64,000 nucleotides of DNA from Inhella proteolytica. Lineage in GTDB: Bacteria > Pseudomonadota > Gammaproteobacteria > Burkholderiales > Burkholderiaceae_C. Shown here piece after piece: positions 29,569 through 41,658 of the stretch. The stretch is from assembly GCF_016093275.1 (NCBI RefSeq), contig NZ_JAEDAK010000013.1, positions 1-64,000 of the forward strand. The letters are read 5' to 3'. Made by a program: the position numbers and the translations under genes. The notes beneath the pieces are model-generated. The model worked only from the letters and a program-made list of their open reading frames with translations, made no database searches and was not told the DNA's origin. Position 1 is the stretch's first letter. Each line of letters starts with the position of its first letter.

Positions 29569-29638
29569 CGGGCCCGCATGGCGAAATCCGGGCCCGTTGT
29601 CACGTCGCTGTCATTTTGCGGCAGGCCCGGGGGCCTGC
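29569..29638 (-). terminator. two stem-loops between pstS and pstC (attenuator or mRNA end)
   Basis: Reading leftward, the first stem-loop is 29638-29621 (GCAGGCCC / GGGCCTGC, two-base loop). The second is 29596-29569 (CGGGCCCG on both arms, 12-base loop), followed by a CTGTTCTTTCT tail. Such structures typically let the binding-protein message accumulate above the permease messages. The short U-tract suggests partial rather than full termination. Confidence 0.6.
29597..29614 (+). promoter_or_regulatory. Pho-box-like site, opposite orientation to the pst genes
   Basis: TTGTCACGTCGCTGTCAT contains two TGTCA repeats spaced 11 bases apart, as in Pho boxes. It reads rightward, toward the 3' end of pstS, whereas the pst genes run leftward. 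It could bind PhoB for an antisense or internal transcript, or be fortuitous. Confidence 0.4.
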
Positions 29639-29644
29639 GTGCGA

Positions 29645-30628
29645 TCACAGGGCGGTTTCGCGGGCCAGCAGTTCCTCGATGGTGATGCCGACCTCGTTCT
29701 TGCCACCGAACACGGTGCCCTTCTTGCCCTTGTTCAGGTGCTCCAGGCCGCCCGTGTAGGCCTTGGCCGGCAGCGGCACGTACTTCACTTCCTTGGCGAT
29801 CTTGGCCGCGTTCTTCATCATGTACTCGACGAACTCCTTGACCTCGGGCTTGCCCAGGGACTTGGCGTTCACGTAGATGAAGATCGGGCGGCTCAGCGGC
29901 TCGTAGGTGCCGGCCAGCACGGCGGCTTCGCTCGGAGCGACGGCCTGGCCCTTGGGGTTGACGATCGGCAGGGCCTTGAGCTTGCCCTGGTTCTCGGCGT
30001 AGTAGGCGTAGCCAAAGTAGCCGATGGCGTTGATGTCTGAGCTCACGCCCTGCACCAGCACGTTGTCGTCTTCCGAGGCGGTGAAGTCGCCGCGGCTGGC
30101 CTTGCTCTTGCCGTTGATGGCTTCGGTGAAGTAGTCGAAGGTGCCCGAGTCGGCGCCGGCGCCGAACAGCTTGATCGGGGCATCCGGCCAGGCCGGGTTG
30201 ACCTGGTTCCAGCGCGTCACCTTGCCCTGGGCGGCCGGTTCCCAGATCTTCTTCAGTTCTTCAACGGTGATCTGCTTCAGGAACGGGTTGCGGGGGTTGA
30301 TGACCACGGTCAGCGCATCAAAGGCCACCGGCAGCTCGTAGTACTCGACGCCGGCCGCCTTGCAGTCGGCCATTTCCTTGGCCAGGATGGGGCGCGAGGC
30401 GTTGCTGATGTCGGTCTCGCCGCGGCAGAACTTCTTGAAGCCGCCGCCGGTGCCCGAAATGCCCACGGTGACCTTGACGGCACCTTTCTTGACCTTCTGG
30501 AAGTCTTCGGCCACGCCCTCGGTGATCGGGAACACGGTCGACGAACCGTCGATCTTGACGACTTGCGCCTGGGCGGCGAAAGCGGTGGCGGCCAGGCCCA
30601 GCAGGGCGAACAGCTTGTTCAGTTGCAT
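29645..30628 (-). CDS. pstS: phosphate-binding periplasmic protein PstS
   Basis: 327 residues with a signal peptide (cleavage after AFAAQA, residue ~21). The ligand-binding signatures are [39 protein letters not shown] and [10 protein letters not shown]. It captures phosphate for PstCAB. A Pho-box-like site lies 56-74 bases upstream, so it should be strongly induced on phosphate starvation. Confidence 0.96.
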
Positions 30629-30683: not shown

Positions 30684-30702
30684 ATGACGGCTTTGTGACA
30701 GC
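30684..30702 (-). promoter_or_regulatory. Pho box upstream of pstS
   Basis: On the minus strand CTGTCACAAAGCCGTCATT, that is TGTCA and CGTCA repeats 11 bases apart with an AT-leaning spacer, close to the PhoB consensus. It is correctly oriented and placed for the pstS promoter. Confidence 0.8.
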
Positions 30703-30729
30703 CGCCGGGAGGAACTGAAATATTTGGGG

Positions 30730-31401
30730 CTAAGCCGGATCAAACCGGTAACCGAGGCCGCGCAGGGAGCGCAGCCGGCCATCCAACCCCAGGGGCTGCA
30801 GGCCCACGCGCAGGCGGCGCACGGTCTGGTCCACGGTGCGGGGCAGGGGGCGGGCCTCGGCGGGCCAGACGGTTTCCAGCAGCTCCTGGCGGCTGACCAC
30901 CCGCCCGGCGCGCCGCAGCAGGGTGCCCAGCAGGCGCAGCTCCAGGGCCGGGATGGCAGCCTGGCGGCGCAGGCCGTCGCCGCCGCGCAGGCGCACCACG
31001 CCGGCCTGGGGGTCGGCCTCGATGTCGCCGCAGACGATGCGCTGAGGGCGCACGCACAGCTCGGGCAGCCAGGCGGCCAGGCGCCGGGAGGTCTGTTCCA
31101 GGTCGCCCTCCCAGGCCAAGACGGGGCAGGGGGGTGGGTGCAGGCGCTCCAGCAACTGGGGGTCGCCCAGCAACAGGTCGGGGGCCAGGGTGTCCAGCCA
31201 GCGCTGGGCCTGGCTGGGGTCGCTGGTGTGTGCCACCAGGGCGCCGCTGGCGGTGGCGGCCTGCAGCAGCTGGCTGAGGCGCGGGTCGGCGCGGCTGACG
31301 GACAACAGGGTGAGCGGGGCGGCGGGGTGCAAGGCGGGAAGGAGAAGCCCAGGACAGCCGCGATGCTGGCCAGGGGCGGTGACACCACTGTGACGCGCCA
31401 T
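30730..31401 (-). CDS. winged-helix regulator with degenerate receiver-like N-terminus
   Basis: About 223 residues if the ATG at 31401 is used; the start is uncertain because the ribosome-binding site lies almost on it. The C-terminal ~100 residues are an OmpR-type winged helix (LELRLLGTLLRRAGRVVSRQ, VDQTVRRLRVGL, LRSLRGLGYRFD). The N-terminal part has the length and alternating pattern of a receiver (LTLLSVSRADPRLSQLL ... PDLLLGDPQLLE). However, the acidic pair is replaced by Ser-Arg, and I see no conserved Thr or Lys. It is therefore probably not a normal phosphorylated regulator. It starts five bases after the glycosyltransferase gene and precedes pstS, so it is likely part of the phosphate response. 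Confidence 0.72.
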   Translation of the reverse strand: MARHSGVTAPGQHRGCPGLLLPALHPAAPLTLLSVSRADPRLSQLLQAATASGALVAHTSDPSQAQRWLDTLAPDLLLGDPQLLERLHPPPCPVLAWEGDLEQTSRRLAAWLPELCVRPQRIVCGDIEADPQAGVVRLRGGDGLRRQAAIPALELRLLGTLLRRAGRVVSRQELLETVWPAEARPLPRTVDQTVRRLRVGLQPLGLDGRLRSLRGLGYRFDPA

Positions 31402-31406
31402 CCCCT

Positions 31407-32651
31407 TCACGCCTCGGGCCCCGACAGCAGCTCGCGGTAGTGGGCCTCGATGCCCGCCACGATGGCGGGCCAGCCCTGTTGCAGGGCCACGGCGCGGGCA
31501 GCCTGCGCCATGCGCTGCAGTTCGGGCGGCTGGCTGCCCAGTTCGGCCACAGCCGTGCAGAAGGCGGTGGGCTGACCCTGCGGTACCAGGCGGCCGGCCG
31601 GGCCCTCGCGCAGCAGCTTGGCGGCCGCCGCGTAGTCGAAAGCGACGACCGGCAGGCCGCTGGCCAGGGCCTCGGGCACCACATTGCCGAAGGTCTCGGT
31701 CAGGCTGGGAAAGGCGAACAGGTCGGCGCTGGCGTAATGCGCCGCCAGCGCGGTGCCGATCTGCAGGCCGCAGAACACCGCGTCCGGGCAGCGTTGGCGC
31801 AGGCGTTCGCGCTCGGGGCCGTCGCCCACCAGCACGAGGCGGGCCTGCGGGGCGCGTTGACGCAGCGTGGCGTAGGCGTCCAGCAGCAGCTCCAGGTTCT
31901 TTTCGGCCGCCAGCCGGCCCACGCAGAGCAGCACCGGGCTGTCCGGCCCGGCGCCCCATTGCGCGCGCAGCGCGGGGTCGCGGCGGCCGGGGTGGAAGCG
32001 CTCGGTGTCCACGCCCCGTGCCACCACCGCCAGGCGCTCGAAGCGCTGGCCGGCCAGGGTGGCGCGCAGGTCCTCCGAGGGCACCAGGGTCCGCTGGCAT
32101 TGGTTGTGGAACTTGCGCAGGTAGGCGTGGATGGGGTGGCGCAGCCAGCCCACGCCGTAGTGCTGGCTGTAGGCGTGGAAATTGGTGCGGAACTCGCTCA
32201 GCACCGGCAGGCGCAGCTGGCGCGCCGCCTGCAGGGCCGACCAGCCCAGCGGCCCCTCGGTGGCGATGTGCACCACGTCGGGCCGCTCGAAGCTCCAGCG
32301 CCGCAGCAGCGCGCGCTTGGCAGGCAGGCCCATGCGCAGCTGCGGGTAGCGCGGGATCGGCAGGCCGCGCATCAGCAGTTCGGCAAAGCCAGCCTCGCTC
32401 TGCGCCTGCTCGGCCTTGTGCTGGCGCGGGCGCACCAGCTGCAGCTCGTGCCCGAACTCGCGCAGGCCCTCGACGATGCGCGCCACCGTGCCCGCCACGC
32501 CGTTCACTTCGGGCGGATAGGTCTCGGTGACGAGGGCGATGCGCAGCCAGCGGTGCTCGCTGCGCGCCGGCAGGATCTCCAGTGCGTCCGGCGCGGCTGG
32601 GGACAGGGGGCTGCGTTCCAGCAGCGCGGCGGTGCGGGCGGCGGTGTTCAT
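31407..32651 (-). CDS. GT4-family glycosyltransferase, probable glycolipid synthase
   Basis: 414 residues with a GT-B fold: N-terminal acceptor domain (RIALVTETYPPEVNGVAGTV) and donor domain with VLLCVGRLAAEKNLELLL and the nucleotide-sugar motif PSLTETFGNVVPEALASGLP. It resembles the diacylglycerol glycosyltransferases (Agt/SqdX/MgtA type) that make glycolipids during phosphate starvation. A Pho-box-like site lies 22-40 bases upstream, and a PlcP-type phosphoesterase that could supply diacylglycerol is encoded 3.4 kb away. Sugar and acceptor are inferred, not shown. Confidence 0.82.
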   Translation of the reverse strand: MNTAARTAALLERSPLSPAAPDALEILPARSEHRWLRIALVTETYPPEVNGVAGTVARIVEGLREFGHELQLVRPRQHKAEQAQSEAGFAELLMRGLPIPRYPQLRMGLPAKRALLRRWSFERPDVVHIATEGPLGWSALQAARQLRLPVLSEFRTNFHAYSQHYGVGWLRHPIHAYLRKFHNQCQRTLVPSEDLRATLAGQRFERLAVVARGVDTERFHPGRRDPALRAQWGAGPDSPVLLCVGRLAAEKNLELLLDAYATLRQRAPQARLVLVGDGPERERLRQRCPDAVFCGLQIGTALAAHYASADLFAFPSLTETFGNVVPEALASGLPVVAFDYAAAAKLLREGPAGRLVPQGQPTAFCTAVAELGSQPPELQRMAQAARAVALQQGWPAIVAGIEAHYRELLSGPEA

Positions 32652-32672
32652 GCGGCCATGCTCAGCCGCCCC

Positions 32673-32691
32673 TGCGACAGCGCTGTGACAG
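32673..32691 (-). promoter_or_regulatory. Pho box upstream of the glycosyltransferase
   Basis: On the minus strand CTGTCACAGCGCTGTCGCA: TGTCA and TGTCG repeats exactly 11 bases apart, the same spacing as at pstS. It ends 22 bases before the annotated ATG. This leaves little room for a -10 and leader, so the transcript may be leaderless. Confidence 0.65.
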
Positions 32692-32726
32692 CGGGCGTCA
32701 CGTCTTTTTCATCAGCGCTGCCGAGC

Positions 32727-33365
32727 ATGCCGCACCCACAACCCCCAGGAGCCTTTGTGACGGAATTCCTGCAAGCCCTGCGCACCCAGCGCTGGGACGA
32801 CCACCGCTACTACCACCACAGCCGCATCAACCAGAGCCTGCACCTGCTCAGCGCGCTGAGCTTTCTGTGCGCCTACGGCCTGCTTTTTGAGGACCCCGCG
32901 CTGGCCGCGCTGCTGGCCTGGGGGGTGTCGATGAGCTCGCGCCAGGCCGGCCACTTCTTCTTCGAGCCCAAGGGTTATGACGAAGTCAACCAGGCCACGC
33001 ACGAGCACAAGGAAGCCATCAAGGTGGGCTACAACCTGCGCCGCAAGGTGTTCCTGATGTCGGCCTGGGCCGCCATGCCGCTGTTGCTGTGGCTGCAGCC
33101 TTCGCTCTGGGGCTGGATTGAGCCGGCGACGGACTTCAACGGGTATTGGCACGACGTCGGCCTGGCCTGGCTGGCCCTGGGCGTGACGGGACTCCTGATG
33201 CGCACCGTGCATCTGTTCCACCTGTACGACGTGCAGACCGGCCTGGTGTGGATGTGCAAGATCCTGACCGACCCCTTCCACGATGTGCTGCTGTACTGGA
33301 AAGCGCCGCTCTACCTCCTGAAGGGCGAACTCATCGACCCCATGCACCACGCCCGTCGGACTTGA
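32727..33365 (+). CDS. Mpo1/DUF962-like membrane protein
   Basis: 212 residues with three to four hydrophobic helices. Histidine motifs cluster at RYYHHSRINQSLHLLSAL, RQAGHFFFEPKGYDEVN, THEHKEAIK and VHLFHLYDV. The H-x3-N-x3-H pattern followed by a GHFFFEP segment recalls the DUF962/Mpo1 family. The yeast member is an iron-dependent dioxygenase of 2-hydroxy fatty acids. The match is by motif only, so a lipid-modifying oxygenase is a guess. It is divergent from the glycosyltransferase (sharing a Pho-box-containing gap) and convergent with the aminotransferase. A run of nine C follows its stop. Confidence 0.6.
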   Translation: MPHPQPPGAFVTEFLQALRTQRWDDHRYYHHSRINQSLHLLSALSFLCAYGLLFEDPALAALLAWGVSMSSRQAGHFFFEPKGYDEVNQATHEHKEAIKVGYNLRRKVFLMSAWAAMPLLLWLQPSLWGWIEPATDFNGYWHDVGLAWLALGVTGLLMRTVHLFHLYDVQTGLVWMCKILTDPFHDVLLYWKAPLYLLKGELIDPMHHARRT

Positions 33366-33465
33366 CCCCCCCCCGAAGCGGCCGGGAGCTCCGTCCCGGC
33401 CGCCTCCCCCATGGGGGCGCCACCAGCGGCCCGGCCAAGTCGGTTCCGCGGTGGCACTGGATCCA

Positions 33466-35112
33466 TCAGCGATTGCGCCAGGCGCCAATCAGCTCACGAA
33501 CCAGCCGGCGCTTCAGATGCCCGGCCGGCGGCGCGCCTTCCCACCAGCCGTCCGCCTGCATGGCGGCGCAGGCGGCCAGGAAGCGTTCGCAGACGGCGTC
33601 GAAATCGGCCTCGCGGTAATCCAGGCTGAAGACGATGCGTCCGCTGCCCACCCAGGACAGCAGCAGGCCCTGCTCGCGCAGGTAGAACTGCAGCATCCAG
33701 TGGTAGCGCCCGGGTTGCAGGAATTCCACCGCCCAGATCGTGGCCAGCTGCTGCACACGCACCGGGAAGCCGGCGGCCTCGAGGCCGGCGTTCAGGCGCT
33801 GGGCGCGGCCGCTCCAGCGCGCGTCCATGCCCTCGTACAGGGCCTGGATCTCGGGCCGCTCCAACTGCTCCAGGAACACCTGCATGGCGCACACCACCTG
33901 CGGGTGGGCGTTGAAGGTGCCGCGCGCGAAGCAGATGTCGGCCGGGCGGTCCTCGCGGAAGCGCTTCATCCAGGCCGCCTTGCCGCACACCACGCCCACC
34001 GGCAGGCCGCCGCCCAGGGTCTTGCCATAGGTCACCAGATCCGCCTGCACGCCGAAGCGCTGCTGCGCGCCGCCCGGGCCGAGGCGAAAGCCCACGAACA
34101 CCTCGTCGAAGATCAGCGCGATGCCGCGCGCGCTGCAGACCTCGCGCAGACGGCGCAGCCAGTCGGCGTAATCCTGCAGATCGGCCGCTTGCAGGCGGCG
34201 CGCGCCCATCAGGCTGCTGTCGCCCGGCGCGGCTGCGTTCGGGTGCAGGGCCTGCAGCGGGTTCACCAGCACGCAGGCGATGTCCTTGCGGGTGCGCAGC
34301 ACGCGCAAGCTGCGCTCGTCCATGTCGCGCAGCGTATAGGTGTGTTCGGCCGCCACCGGGTTGCCCGGCCCGGGCTGCACATCGCCCCACCAACCGTGGT
34401 ACGCGCCGCAAAAGCGCACCAGCTTGGCGCGGCCGGTGTGGTAGCGCGCCAGGCGCACGGCCTGCATCACCGCCTCGGTGCCGGACATATGAAAGCTCAC
34501 CTCGTCCATGCCCGAGAGCCGGCACAGGCGCTGGGCCACATCGGCCACCGCCGGGTGGTAGGCGCCCAGCAGCACGCCGTGGTCCAGCGCGCGCTCCTGC
34601 GCCTGCACCAGGCAGCGCTTGTAGAACTCGTGGCCGAACAGATTGACGCCGTAGCTGCCGGTCAGGTCGTAGAACTCCTGGCCGTCCAGGTCGGTCAGGA
34701 TGAAGCCGTCGGCCCGCTGCAGGAAGGCGCCCAGGCCCAGCTGCGCGCGCACCTGGCGGCTGAAGGGCGGGGGCACGCGGTAGGCGCCGGTGAACTGCAG
34801 GTCGCTGATGAAGGGGCGGGCCTGCTGGGTGAGTGCCAGGCTGCGCGGGTGGCGCTCGCGCAAGGTGGTGGCCAGGCGCTCGAAGCCGGCGCGGCGGCGC
34901 TGCTGCAAGGCGGGCTCTGCGCCGTCGGCCGCGTAGAACTGGGTGTCTTCCAGGTGGTAGCCCGGCAGCAGCCGGCTGACGCGGCGCGCCATCTTGGCGT
35001 GGCCGGTCAGCGAGGGGTGCTTGGCCAGTGAGAGCTGGGCGCGCTGGTAGGCCTTGTGTGCCAGCACGCCGCCCGTGGCAAGGGCCAGGGCGAGCGTCCA
35101 CGGTTCTGTCAT
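33466..35112 (-). CDS. class III aminotransferase, glutamate-1-semialdehyde aminotransferase-like
   Basis: 548 residues from ATG 35112. The N-terminus has a hydrophobic stretch (WTLALALATGGVLAHKAY) that could anchor it to the membrane, which is unusual for this family. The PLP fold is complete: MSGTEAVMQAVRLAR, FCGAYHGWWGD, IFDEVFVGFR and PLP-binding Lys364 in TYGKTLGGGLPVG. It is longer than HemL (about 430 residues), with roughly 110 extra N-terminal residues, so it is unlikely to be the haem-pathway enzyme. It is divergent from the decarboxylase-family gene with 55 bases between, inside the phosphate/lipid region. Substrate unknown; an aminolipid or headgroup precursor is an inference. Confidence 0.8.
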   Translation of the reverse strand: MTEPWTLALALATGGVLAHKAYQRAQLSLAKHPSLTGHAKMARRVSRLLPGYHLEDTQFYAADGAEPALQQRRRAGFERLATTLRERHPRSLALTQQARPFISDLQFTGAYRVPPPFSRQVRAQLGLGAFLQRADGFILTDLDGQEFYDLTGSYGVNLFGHEFYKRCLVQAQERALDHGVLLGAYHPAVADVAQRLCRLSGMDEVSFHMSGTEAVMQAVRLARYHTGRAKLVRFCGAYHGWWGDVQPGPGNPVAAEHTYTLRDMDERSLRVLRTRKDIACVLVNPLQALHPNAAAPGDSSLMGARRLQAADLQDYADWLRRLREVCSARGIALIFDEVFVGFRLGPGGAQQRFGVQADLVTYGKTLGGGLPVGVVCGKAAWMKRFREDRPADICFARGTFNAHPQVVCAMQVFLEQLERPEIQALYEGMDARWSGRAQRLNAGLEAAGFPVRVQQLATIWAVEFLQPGRYHWMLQFYLREQGLLLSWVGSGRIVFSLDYREADFDAVCERFLAACAAMQADGWWEGAPPAGHLKRRLVRELIGAWRNR

Positions 35113-35157
35113 ATCGGCTCCCGACACTGTGAAGCCCGCCGGTGTACGCCGCTGACT

Positions 35158-35174
35158 TGACAGGCTCATGACCT
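35158..35174 (-). promoter_or_regulatory. possible Pho box upstream of the aminotransferase
   Basis: On the minus strand AGGTCATGAGCCTGTCA: GTCAT and GTCAA elements 11 bases apart. It is weaker than the sites at pstS and the glycosyltransferase, and it overlaps the start codon of the divergent decarboxylase-family gene. Confidence 0.35.
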
Positions 35175-36055
35175 CCACCCCCCAAGCCGCGCCACGCCGC
35201 TGGCGCGAGCGCTTGCTGCTGAACGAAGACCTCAATTTCCTGCTCACCAACCGCCTGCCGCGCCGCTGGCTGACGCTAGCGATGGGCCGCTTCAGCAAGA
35301 TCCGCAGCCCCTGGCTGACGCGGTTCTCGATCGGGGTCTGGCGCCAGTTCACCGAGCTGGATCTGAGCGAGGCCAAGGAACAGCGCTTCGAGAGCCTGCA
35401 CGCCTGCTTCACCCGCGAACTGAAGGAGGGCGCGCGCCCGCTAGCCCCCGACCCGGCGCTGCTGATCAGCCCCTGCGATGCCCTTGTGGGCGCCATCGGC
35501 CGGGTGCAGCGGGGCACGGTGCTGCAGGCCAAGGGCATGCCCTACCGGTTGGCCGAGCTGTTCGGCTGCAGCGAGGAGCCAGCCGAGTTTGAGGGCGGCC
35601 ATTACCTGACCCTGCGCCTGACCTCGGCGATGTACCACCGCTTCCACGCCCCGGCTGACGCGTGCATCGAGGCGGTGCGCTACCTCAGCGGCGACACCTG
35701 GAACGTCAACCCGATCGCGCTCAAGCGCATCGAGCGCCTGTTCTGCCGCAACGAGCGCGCGCGCATCCGCCTGCGCCTAGCCGATGGGCGGCCGATGGCC
35801 CTCGTGCCGGTGGCGGCCATCCTGGTGGCCAGCATCCGCCTGCACTTTCTGGACGTGCTGCTGCACCTGCGCTGGGCCGGCCCGCGCGACCTGCCCTGTG
35901 ACGTGCCGGTGCGGCGCGGCCAGGAGCTGGGCTGGTTCGAGCATGGCTCGACCCTGGTGGTCTTCGTGCCGCCCGGCTTCGAGCCCTGCGTGACCACGGG
36001 GCAGCGCTTGCGCATGGGGCAGGCGCTCTTGCGGCCTGTCATCGCGCCGTCTTGA
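35168..36055 (+). CDS. phosphatidylserine decarboxylase family protein
   Basis: 295 residues. Family motifs are ISPCDALVGAIG, LKEGARPLA, MPYRLAELFG, MYHRFHAPAD and the self-cleavage site HGST (Ser261), where most bacterial Psd enzymes have LGST. Cleavage before Ser would leave a pyruvoyl group that decarboxylates a serine-type phospholipid headgroup. The Leu-to-His change and the location beside an aminotransferase, glycosyltransferase and PlcP suggest a second, specialised Psd rather than the housekeeping one, though I cannot see the rest of the genome. plcP follows after 22 bases, probably in one operon. Confidence 0.85.
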   Translation: MTSTPQAAPRRWRERLLLNEDLNFLLTNRLPRRWLTLAMGRFSKIRSPWLTRFSIGVWRQFTELDLSEAKEQRFESLHACFTRELKEGARPLAPDPALLISPCDALVGAIGRVQRGTVLQAKGMPYRLAELFGCSEEPAEFEGGHYLTLRLTSAMYHRFHAPADACIEAVRYLSGDTWNVNPIALKRIERLFCRNERARIRLRLADGRPMALVPVAAILVASIRLHFLDVLLHLRWAGPRDLPCDVPVRRGQELGWFEHGSTLVVFVPPGFEPCVTTGQRLRMGQALLRPVIAPS

Positions 36056-36077
36056 TCGGCCCCCAGCATGACGGGCC

Positions 36078-36944
36078 ATGCGACGCGACCTGCCCTGTGA
36101 TGTCCGCACCGATCTGGCCTCCGCGCTGCTGGGCGCTCCCGCTCAGGAGGGCGACGAAACCGGCGAGCTGCGCCTGCGCACGGTCTGGATTTCCGACCTG
36201 CACCTCGGCACCCCGGGCTGCCAGGCCGGTGCGCTGCTGGATTTCCTGCGCCGGGTGGAGTGCGAGACGCTCTATCTGGTGGGCGACATCATTGACGGCT
36301 GGCAGCTGCGCCGTCAGTGGTTCTGGCCGCAGCAGCACAACGACGTGGTGCAAAAGCTCCTGCGCAAGGTGCGCAAGGGCACGCGCGTGGTCTTCGTGCC
36401 CGGCAACCACGACGAGTTCGCGCGCCGCTACCTGGGTCACAGCTTTGGTGGCATCGAGGTGCTGGCCGAGGCCATCCACACCACGGCCGATGGGCGACGG
36501 CTCTGGGTCACCCATGGCGACCACTTTGACGGCGTCATCCAGTGCGCCAAATGGCTGGCCTATCTGGGCGACTGGGCCTACACGCGCGCACTGGCGCTGA
36601 ACCACTGGCTGAACTCGGCGCGCGCGCGCCTGGGGCTGCCGTACTGGAGCCTTTCGCGCTACCTGAAGCTCAAGGTCAAGCGCGCGGTGGCCTATGTGGA
36701 CGATTTCGAGGCCGCGGTGGCGCGCGAGGCGCGCGCCCGGGGGCTGGACGGCGTGGTGTGTGGGCATATCCACCACGCCGAGCTGCGCGAAATAGAGGGC
36801 ATCCTCTATGCGAACGACGGCGACTGGGTGGAAAGCCTGACCGCCTTGGCCGAGCACCCGGATGGGCGCCTGGAGATCTTGGACTGGAGCGCGAGCCTGC
36901 AGGCGCGCCGGGCGGCCGAGCCGACCGCCCTGATCACCACCTGA
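36078..36944 (+). CDS. calcineurin-like phosphoesterase, PlcP-type phospholipase C
   Basis: 288 residues. Metal ligands are in WISDLHLG (Asp40, His42), GDIIDG (Asp70), GNHDE (Asn110, His111), THGDHFD (His146) and GHIHHAE. The TLYLVGDIIDGW, HNDVVQKLLRK and IHTTADGRRL segments are those of PlcP, often mis-named UDP-2,3-diacylglucosamine hydrolase. PlcP removes phospholipid headgroups during phosphate starvation, releasing diacylglycerol for glycolipid synthesis. A true LpxH is encoded at 40.9-41.7 kb, which supports this reading. It sits downstream of the decarboxylase-family gene. Confidence 0.85.
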   Translation: MRRDLPCDVRTDLASALLGAPAQEGDETGELRLRTVWISDLHLGTPGCQAGALLDFLRRVECETLYLVGDIIDGWQLRRQWFWPQQHNDVVQKLLRKVRKGTRVVFVPGNHDEFARRYLGHSFGGIEVLAEAIHTTADGRRLWVTHGDHFDGVIQCAKWLAYLGDWAYTRALALNHWLNSARARLGLPYWSLSRYLKLKVKRAVAYVDDFEAAVAREARARGLDGVVCGHIHHAELREIEGILYANDGDWVESLTALAEHPDGRLEILDWSASLQARRAAEPTALITT

Positions 36945-40135: not shown

Positions 40136-40912
40136 TCAGGCGTCGGCGGGGTCCTGACGGAAGTAGGCGGCCAGCAGCGCGTAGAGCGGCGGGTCTTCGG
40201 CCCGCAGCTCCTGCGGTGCCACGAAAAAGGCCTCCGCCGCCACGGCGAAGAATTCGTCCAGGGCCGCGCTGCCATAGGGGTCGATGCAGCTGGATTCGCG
40301 GTGCGCCACCCGGTCCGCAAAGCGGTCCCAGGCCAGCGGCAGCTCCGCCAGCCAGCGCTGGCGCAAGACGGGGTCGGTGATCTCGGGCAGGCCGTTGGCG
40401 TCGCCGCCATGGCGCAGGTCCAGCAGGTGCACGAACTCGTGCACCACCACATTGAAGACGGGCTGTTCCGGGTCGTCGGCCTGCTGCACCGCTTCCCAGC
40501 TCAGCATCAAGGGGCCGCCCGGCATGGCCTCGCCGGCGAGCACTTCGTCCCACTGGTGCACCACGCCGTGCTCGTCCACTTCCTCGCGCGGGGCCAGCAC
40601 CTCACCGGGGTGCAGCACGATGCCCACCGTGCCGTCGTACAGCGCCAGATCCAGGCGCAGCACCGGCAGGCAGGCCTGGGCTGCCACCGCCAGCGCCATG
40701 GCATCGGTCAGCTGCAGCCCGCCGCTGGTGTGGAAGCGCTTGCGGGCCAGGAACAGGCTGCACAGGCGTCGCAATTCGGCCAGGTCCGCGGCGCTGCGCC
40801 GAGCAACGAAGGGGTAGTTGGCCAGCAGGGCGTGCCAGAGCGCGTCCGGAATCGCGAAGCGCTGCAGCTGCCGCTGCTCGCGCCAGCGCTGCCAGCGCGC
40901 CCACAGGCTCAT
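40136..40912 (-). CDS. mtfA: M90 family zinc metallopeptidase MtfA
   Basis: 258 residues with the zinc motif HEFVH (158-162, HExxH) in NVVVHEFVHLLDLRHG and a downstream DEFFAVAAEAFF glutamate region, matching MtfA, the factor that titrates the glucose regulator Mlc in enterobacteria. In betaproteobacteria its role is less clear. Its ATG overlaps the lpxH stop (ATGA). Confidence 0.9.
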   Translation of the reverse strand: MSLWARWQRWREQRQLQRFAIPDALWHALLANYPFVARRSAADLAELRRLCSLFLARKRFHTSGGLQLTDAMALAVAAQACLPVLRLDLALYDGTVGIVLHPGEVLAPREEVDEHGVVHQWDEVLAGEAMPGGPLMLSWEAVQQADDPEQPVFNVVVHEFVHLLDLRHGGDANGLPEITDPVLRQRWLAELPLAWDRFADRVAHRESSCIDPYGSAALDEFFAVAAEAFFVAPQELRAEDPPLYALLAAYFRQDPADA

Positions 40913-41658
40913 GGCTGCGGCAGGCGCTGCCAACCCTGGGGGCTGAAGAGCATCACTTCGCCGCGCGTGCCGCCATGGTCATGGTCCCAGTCGCTCAGCA
41001 CCAGGCGCTGGGCGCCGCCGGGCAGTGCGTGCCGGGCCGGGCGATGCGTGTGGCCATGTAGCAGGGTCAGGGCGGCGTGGCGCTGCAGCAGGGCGGCGCA
41101 GGCCTGGGCGTCCAGGTCGGCATAGGGCCCGTCCGCCTGGGCCTGCTGACTGGCGTCACGCATCTGCGCCGCCAACTGCAGGCGCGTGGCCAGAGGCTGG
41201 GCCAAAAATCCCTGCTGCCAGGCCGGCTGCCGCACCTGGGCCCGAAAGGCCTGGTAGGGGCGGTCCTCCAGACATTGGGCGTCGCCATGCACCAGCACGA
41301 CGCGCTGCCCGAAGGCCTGCAGACAGACCTCCTCGGCCAGCAACTGCAGGCCGCAGGCCTCGGCCATTGCCGGGCCGAGCAGGAAGTCGCGATTGCCATG
41401 CTGGAAATACACCGGACGCGTGGCGGCGCAGGTGCTCAGCAGCGCCACCACGGCCTGTGCCCAGGGCAGTTCACGGGCGTCGTCGCCCACCCAGGCCTCG
41501 AACAGGTCGCCCAGGATGAAGAGCGCGTCCGCATCCAGTGCTTGCAGCGCGCGCTGCAAGGCCAGCTGGGTTCTCGGCGTGTCCGGCCCGAGGTGCAGGT
41601 CGGAGATGAAAGCAAGGCGCCGCCACGCGGGCGGCGCCTGGATCTGATCGATGAGCAG
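40909..41658 (-). CDS. lpxH: UDP-2,3-diacylglucosamine pyrophosphatase LpxH, non-standard start
   Basis: Lipid A pathway enzyme that makes lipid X. Motifs are FISDLHLG, GDLFEAWVGDD, HGNRDFLLG and HGHTHRPA. The metal-binding FISDLHLG lies upstream of the first in-frame ATG/GTG/TTG (a TTG at 41559), so that start would delete an essential part. Reading back in frame gives LLIDQIQAPPAWRRLAFISD with no standard start before overlap with ppiB. A CTG at 41658 has GAGG seven bases upstream and is chosen here, giving 249 residues, normal for the family. An ATC a few codons later or a sequence error is possible. It probably shares a transcript with ppiA-ppiB-mtfA. Confidence 0.85.
   Translation of the reverse strand: MLIDQIQAPPAWRRLAFISDLHLGPDTPRTQLALQRALQALDADALFILGDLFEAWVGDDARELPWAQAVVALLSTCAATRPVYFQHGNRDFLLGPAMAEACGLQLLAEEVCLQAFGQRVVLVHGDAQCLEDRPYQAFRAQVRQPAWQQGFLAQPLATRLQLAAQMRDASQQAQADGPYADLDAQACAALLQRHAALTLLHGHTHRPARHALPGGAQRLVLSDWDHDHGGTRGEVMLFSPQGWQRLPQP

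Follow-up and report, generated by a model that had tools for sequence, protein, structure and literature searches.

Bacteria in phosphate-poor water and soil spare phosphate through changes in their membranes, and the known phosphate-saving routes yield glycolipids, ornithine lipids and betaine lipids. The locus described here lies in a 64,000-nucleotide stretch of the Inhella proteolytica genome (contig NZ_JAEDAK010000013.1, positions 1 to 64,000; hereafter the window) and resembles the PlcP/Agt remodelling systems of Agrobacterium, Phaeobacter, SAR11, Pseudomonas aeruginosa and Methylosinus in having a phosphoesterase together with a GT4-type glycosyltransferase. Three further genes stand with these two, encoding a class III aminotransferase dependent on pyridoxal phosphate (PLP), a member of the phosphatidylserine decarboxylase (PSD) family and a remote Mpo1-like protein, designated AT, PSD* and MPO. 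According to the available portions of three papers, neighbourhoods of plcP with glycosyltransferases and Pho boxes have already been described (PMC4796936, PMC8528852, PMC9239053). The words "phosphatidylserine decarboxylase" and "aminotransferase" are absent from these three texts, whereas AT, PSD* and MPO form the fixed core of the locus described here. No prior description of the gene set was found among the titles and abstract openings of the open-access papers listed in searches aimed at it, a scope outside which subscription papers and preprints fall. The known part of the locus would be the PlcP/Agt-type replacement of phospholipids by glycolipids, and the new part a near-obligate trio whose families, taken together, suggest amine chemistry on a membrane lipid. 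Judged from sequence, the locus is somewhat more probably than otherwise (probability roughly 0.55) a PhoB-controlled lipid-remodelling cassette in which PlcP/GT4 glycolipid synthesis would be joined to an undescribed amine-lipid branch. The genes are as follows.

31407..32651, − strand: GT4 glycosyltransferase, candidate diacylglycerol glycosyltransferase (Pfam Glyco_trans_1_4, 113.6 bits, above cut-off)
32727..33365, + strand: MPO, remote Mpo1-like (DUF962) helical protein
33466..35112, − strand: AT, class III PLP aminotransferase (Pfam Aminotran_3, 133.6 bits, above cut-off)
35168..36055, + strand: PSD*, phosphatidylserine-decarboxylase family (Pfam PS_Dcarbxylase, 193.9 bits, above cut-off)
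36078..36944, + strand: PlcP-type calcineurin-like phosphoesterase (Pfam Metallophos, 47.3 bits, above cut-off)

All five, and the pstS gene beyond them, are intact open reading frames (ORFs) where the first-pass annotation of the window had placed them. Divergent promoters lie between GT4 and MPO and between AT and PSD*; PSD* and the phosphoesterase gene, 22 bp apart, probably form one operon.

Conservation of the locus was examined in three samples: 120 genomes of the order, that of the window among them, 398 genomes of the phylum, and the best 80 of 583 matching stretches, the last biased towards close kin; all genome counts take related genomes as independent. In the order sample AT was found in 14 genomes and MPO and PSD* in 15 each; the same 14 genomes carry all three, adjacent in each, and G064 is the extra MPO/PSD* genome. 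AT and PSD* were each present in 25 genomes of the phylum sample, 24 of them common to both (26 carriers overall). In G266 the contig with the AT gene is 4.4 kb long and stops short of the expected position of PSD*, and G396, a genome 78% complete, has PSD* without an AT match. The neighbourhood of AT was viewed in 19 of the 25 phylum carriers and contained the whole trio in 18, that of G266 being cut by the contig end. Among the best 80 of 583 loci, PSD was found in 78, MPO in 78, GT4 in 69, the PlcP-like gene in 39 and pstS in 2, the GT4 and PlcP tallies including weaker homologues anywhere within the fetched flank (some GT4 homologues are just 30-38% identical). In the two loci without PSD (L045, L109) the contig ends before its expected place, and in the two without MPO (L066, L110) 0.6 and 1.3 kb of contig remain past AT. 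A different gene comes after AT in L110 and also in L089, whose MPO gene lies 3.4 kb off. The trio was found in at least 80 genomes with AT identity of 58-71%, and carriers include Rubrivivax, Roseateles, Pelomonas, Limnohabitans, Variovorax, Malikia, Parazoarcus, Sulfuricella and Bradyrhizobium; the trio is present in the class of the window and also in families belonging to other classes of this phylum. Conserved co-occurrence, proposed earlier as a check on the locus, was strongly borne out for the AT-PSD*-MPO trio and, genome-wide, for the PlcP-like gene. These results indicate that AT, PSD* and MPO are a near-obligate trio and the conserved core, PlcP being the variable part. Chance proximity of the three genes was rejected, the trio being constant across genera. 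Genome G064 (L211:6022-6987) is a natural loss, with PSD* and GT4 intact but AT cut to approximately residues 103-224 and MPO to residues 11-155. At E <= 1e-50 a PlcP-like gene was not matched in G064, whose GT4 gene has a phoU homologue ∼1.2 kb away.

PSD* resembles E. coli Psd in sequence family, in the pyruvoyl GST and in the equivalents of His144 and Asp90. The GST, Asp and His that the PSD family requires are all present, the pyruvoyl site reading HGS261T; S261 and the catalytic H157 are invariant and D104, the Asp90 equivalent, is conserved in at least 97%. PSD* differs in that R150, M155 and N179 occupy, by alignment, the positions of E. coli Y137, D142 and S166, and these residues are invariant among 93 aligned PSD* sequences (coverage at least 85%, stop-free, gaps passed over). 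A divergent protein of G003, outside this set, keeps the Arg and Asn and has Gln instead of Met. The non-cassette PSDs read comprised one at locus L203 and ten E. coli-type enzymes of carrier genomes; all ten of the latter have Tyr and Asp, and the eight readable at the Ser position all have Ser, with LGST versus the HGST of PSD*. At least two PSD-family genes were found in 28 of 28 genomes tested (carriers and G064), so that PSD* is always a second copy, and the possibility that it serves as the sole PSD of a genome was rejected. In the portion available of a study of the E. coli enzyme, the lipid phosphate is contacted by Tyr137 and Ser166, and the Y137F variant has half activity, S166A alone shows little change and the double mutant is much weaker (PMC7952604). 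Neither residue is retained in the 93 aligned PSD* sequences, which have Arg and Asn instead. Since both phosphate-contacting side chains are replaced, the alignment suggests that PSD* acts on a different head group.

The enzymes most like AT are glutamate-1-semialdehyde aminomutases and the mycosubtilin aminotransferase, but AT falls below every NCBIfam cut-off shown, the HemL equivalog among them (173.6 bits versus a cut-off of 527.3). Its top sequence match in the PDB is the aminotransferase domain of mycosubtilin synthase. Lys364 and Asp336 are invariant among 98 sequences, and K364 is likely to be the PLP lysine. The structure model was mediocre overall (pLDDT 74), with a hydrophobic N-terminal helix (residues 4-30) modelled at low confidence (pLDDT 49-65).

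The assignment of MPO to Mpo1/DUF962 in the first-pass annotation is a remote one: with 15.3 bits, MPO of the window stays under the PF06127 cut-off of 24; all 15 members scanned (window included) match this family weakly, at E <= 0.1 (best 8.3e-6, window 0.021), and no other family matches more than one of them. One MPO match in a genome, that of G014, exceeds the cut-off with 24.6 bits. Comparison by hhalign with one DUF962 subgroup gave a probability of 38% with 15 rows and 56% with 92 rows (E from 3e-4 to 1e-4) and paired the H-x7-LH and GHFxFE motifs that MPO shares with the Mpo1/DUF962 2-hydroxy-fatty-acid dioxygenases; with a second subgroup (ten rows, L123 and L125 being overlong reading frames) the probability was 0.8%. 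MPO differs from that family in being longer, with an extra DDHRYYHH stretch and C-terminal helices. All 92 sequences aligned have H26, H30, H39, H76 and E80, which are candidate metal ligands. By its sequence MPO is predicted to be membrane-bound and helical; its structure model was confident (pLDDT 86.9), and a PDB fold search with the model returned no match at E <= 0.001. The family name refers to 2-hydroxy-palmitic acid, and Mpo1 presumably acts on 2-hydroxy acids.

In eight loci belonging to other classes within the phylum (L165-L169, L171, L177 and L213) a PmtA-like methyltransferase gene adjoins MPO, and such a gene is also beside MPO in two of the best 80 loci, L075 (Bradyrhizobium) and L107 (labelled Nitrosovibrio). 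The eight were taken as alphaproteobacterial, the methyltransferase being 81-84% like that of L075 in three of them. The amine-bearing surrogate lipid suggested in the first-pass annotation fits the gene content, above all because this N-methyltransferase joins the block in some loci. During phosphate starvation, as in the known PlcP/Agt pathway, the phosphoesterase would cleave phospholipid head groups and GT4 would then add a sugar to the remaining diacylglycerol. MPO, AT and PSD* would build an amine on a phosphorus-free lipid, standing in for the lost phosphatidylethanolamine (PE). In the favoured order MPO would oxidise, AT would transaminate and PSD* would then carry out a pyruvoyl-dependent decarboxylation, and the PmtA-like enzyme, where present, would methylate the resulting amine. 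In its most specific form the proposal is that the trio rebuilds an ethanolamine-type head group on a lipid free of phosphorus, MPO acting on a lipid-linked 2-hydroxy acid to give a 2-oxo acid, AT converting this to an amino acid and PSD* yielding the amine, which in some lineages a PmtA-like enzyme would methylate. It is the simplest chain if each protein follows the reaction class usual for its family, and it is put forward tentatively, as a rather unlikely one in this exact form.

Phosphate control was evaluated with a Pho-box score for CTGTCAT-N4-CTGTCAT (weights of our own, maximum 18) applied to both strands of the 64 kb, 127,966 positions in all. Three sites only reached a score of at least 16.

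29597..29614, + strand: Pho-box-like site TTGTCACGTCGCTGTCAT in the pstS/pstC gap; score 16.9/18, the top of the 127,966 window positions
30684..30701, − strand: Pho box CTGTCACAAAGCCGTCAT, 56 bp before pstS; score 16.4, reached by 0 of 500 gap shuffles
32674..32691, − strand: Pho box CTGTCACAGCGCTGTCGC in the divergent GT4/MPO promoter; score 16.6, reached by 0 of 500 shuffles

The Pho boxes reported earlier before pstS and before GT4 are therefore among the three best sites of the window, whereas the weaker one reported before the aminotransferase gene is not above chance there (best score 12.3, equalled by 9% of shuffles). The top-scoring site runs opposite in strand to the flanking pstS and pstC. 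For the comparison across genomes a set of 80 loci was used (window in, L099 out), with gaps taken strictly between start codons; 61 GT4/MPO and 67 AT/PSD* gaps were usable, the others lacking a gene, not being divergent in order or having an unfitting length. A score of at least 14 was reached by 48 of the 61 GT4/MPO gaps, where shuffles predict 1.4, and by 16 of 72 control gaps, which include true Pho-gene promoters. Counted independently of the score, TGTCA with a copy matching in at least 4 of 5 bases 11 bp off occurs in 25/61 GT4/MPO gaps, every other spacing from 7 to 19 in at most 7/61 each. The 11-bp spacing was present in 7 of the 55 control gaps left when the clusters with Pho-gene promoters were removed; these neighbourhoods may hold additional Pho boxes, or the control may still be unclean. 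In two Bradyrhizobium-like loci, L165 and L166, the AT/PSD* gap has a near-perfect box (17.5), and on the glycosyltransferase side L165 scores 17.9 and L166 14.9; in L171 a score of 15.3 was obtained ahead of the methyltransferase gene. Phosphate control is supported because the GT4/MPO promoter carries a conserved Pho box.

The PlcP-like gene, scored as present at E <= 1e-50 and with G064 counted as AT-free, was found in 57 of the 120 order genomes: each of the 14 AT carriers has it, as do 43 of the other 106 genomes (Fisher p = 1.1e-5), and it is at times at an unlinked site. In the phylum sample homologues occur in 148 of 398 genomes (39-81% identity among the matches listed), in 18 of 25 AT carriers versus 130 of 373 others (p = 3.8e-4). 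The window phosphoesterase differs from LpxH, its scores of 45.1 and 37.3 bits lying far under the cut-offs of 134 and 190.35 of the two LpxH models. A separate ORF, 40909-41559 (− strand), 4 kb away, resembles true LpxH by eye. The nearest NCBIfam model of the window GT4 is a lipid GT4, matched with 159 bits, far under its cut-off of 480.

The seven phylum AT carriers without a PlcP-like gene (G494, G155, G236, G262, G266, G320 and G358) were all inspected, and in every one a PHP-like domain of ∼520 residues adjoins AT. In six the domain runs in frame straight into GT4, and in G266 it is truncated by the end of the contig; a single ORF comprising both was observed in four (L170, L172, L173 and L176). 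The motifs, read in four of the seven, follow the order D[LM]HCHD, NHNN, HP, [ST]DDH. Positions are as follows.

PHP-like domain: L176:3674-6352; L172:2344-5022; L173:4111-6984; L170:8994-11669; L209; L210; L153 (cut)

No Pfam match was found for the three domains scanned, and one of two scanned against NCBIfam gave weak matches to metallohydrolases of PHP type, namely CehA/McbA (E = 2.9e-5) and a nucleoside bisphosphate phosphatase (E = 0.009). The domain is absent from all of the best 80 loci. The fusion is read as a second way of meeting the same need, in which a phosphoesterase would be joined to GT4, and is possibly a one-protein equivalent of PlcP plus Agt.

Several results weigh against the proposed PhoB-controlled cassette with an amine-lipid branch. 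The description of the locus as a PhoB-linked island stands at the GT4/MPO promoter and its 11-bp-spaced box, but the AT/PSD* promoter is no better than controls: 11 of 67 gaps score at least 14, not above the control gaps, and the 11-bp spacing occurs in 6 of 67 versus 7 of 55. Four of the seven alphaproteobacteria-like loci scored (L167, L168, L169 and L177) are without a good box at either promoter, and the PlcP-like gene is within the fetched flank in just those 39 of the best 80 loci. The PmtA-like protein of L075, at 143.7 bits, is far under the PmtA model cut-off of 390. From the portion available of work on Bradyrhizobium, its Pmt enzymes act on ordinary PE or on methylated derivatives of it (PMC8590670), so that a phospholipid substrate suits the PmtA-like neighbour equally well. 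Finally, Arg replaces Tyr137 in 15% of PSDs according to the available text of the E. coli study (PMC7952604), and the non-cassette PSD of L203 also has Arg, with Asp; Arg150 could itself bind phosphate, and PSD* may still use phosphatidylserine.

In a possible, if doubtful, alternative, PSD* is a starvation isozyme that still makes PE from phosphatidylserine and feeds PlcP, with phosphatidylcholine (PC) formed by the PmtA-like enzyme, and AT and MPO modify acyl chains or backbone and not the head group, for example by alpha-oxidation of 2-hydroxy acyl chains or amination of a keto-lipid. The invariant H157 and S261 and the conserved D104, the existence of Arg-type PSDs, the PmtA-like partner and a family name that points to 2-hydroxy-palmitic acid are consistent with such an isozyme, but a second PSD is already present in all 28 genomes tested, the two side chains in contact with phosphate are replaced in the whole PSD* group, and no acyl-modifying partner recurs save OlsF and OlsB-domain genes in few lineages. 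That the trio instead makes or decorates a surface glycolipid, a part of lipopolysaccharide or a secreted lipid-like metabolite under PhoB control, and not a bulk membrane lipid, appears quite unlikely; GT4, the nucleotide-sugar dehydrogenase neighbours and the match of AT to mycosubtilin synthase would agree with it, whereas the genome-wide association with a phosphoesterase, replacement domain included, and the LplT, OlsF, OlsB-domain and PmtA-like neighbours indicate membrane lipids. PlcP/Agt alone would account for the GT4 and phosphoesterase genes, and the PlcP-like gene often occurs where the trio is absent (the 43 of 106 AT-free order genomes). Ordinary PlcP/Agt glycolipid remodelling beside unrelated genes is nevertheless very improbable, the conserved core across classes of the phylum being the trio and not PlcP. 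Under the preferred reading of a cassette with an amine-lipid branch, the conserved Pho-box-linked trio, Bradyrhizobium included, predicts one further membrane lipid, and PSD* would be a natural example of an enzyme of phospholipid metabolism shifted to a new substrate. In the more specific, rather unlikely form with a rebuilt ethanolamine-type head group, the products would be phosphate-free analogues of PE and PC, made by a membrane-bound serine-ethanolamine-choline pathway.

On the other side of GT4 the window continues with the following genes.

29645..30628, − strand: pstS, phosphate-binding protein (NCBIfam PstS family, 309.1 bits, cut-off 206.6)
Downstream of pstS: pstC, pstA, pstB, phoU and phoB (ORFs named by eye)
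About 30730..31401, − strand: orphan PhoB-like DNA-binding protein (start codon by eye; residues from 31377 down scanned)

The locus had been described as fused to the pst operon, which is correct only for the window and its close kin L032, L033, L175 and L178; pstS adjoins two of the best 80 loci, and a general link between cassette and pst was rejected. Linkage to pst was looked at in two (G121, G122) of the four other AT-carrying genomes of the genus. The genes phoB-phoU-pstB are in the flank of three further loci, L098, L099 and L111, of which L099 apparently duplicates L098. The orphan PhoB-like protein between pstS and GT4, overlooked in the first-pass annotation, matches Trans_reg_C (PF00486) with 58.1 bits and the PhoB model with 54.9 bits, far under the cut-off of 296.2; a winged helix only was detected in it, and no receiver domain. 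Among the 80 loci and 14 more, its gene is beside GT4 in the same four close kin.

Genes flanking the cassette were grouped by simple ORF linkage over 81 loci and one representative of each cluster was scanned. LplT was found in 31 of the 81 clustered loci, the scanned representative being over the cut-off, a nucleotide-sugar dehydrogenase nearest to UDP-glucose dehydrogenase in 15, and a GT28 protein weakly akin to diglucosyl-diacylglycerol synthase in eight. Polyphosphate kinase (9/81) and exopolyphosphatase (8/81) were named by eye. Ornithine-lipid synthesis by OlsF and OlsB and methylation by PmtA are similar to the proposed branch in concerning phosphorus-free or amine-bearing lipids, with adjoining genes in some lineages, and differ from the trio in that these genes are neighbours only, outside the fixed core. 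OlsF comes after the cassette in L176 (816 bits versus a cut-off of 620), with an 87% identical copy in L170. An OlsB-domain (PF13444) gene adjoins GT4 in G012 and, by coordinates, also in G060 and G104. The idea that the cassette substitutes for ornithine lipids was rejected, there being no mutual exclusion: PF13444 is present in 95 of the 120 order genomes and in 13 of 14 AT carriers (not G070). In several genomes of the order PlcP-like and OlsB-domain genes lie less than 3 kb apart, at G069:C1:2660300-2662504, G076:C1:1214916-1217775, G031:C1:997240-1000172 and G108:C19:59080-61409.

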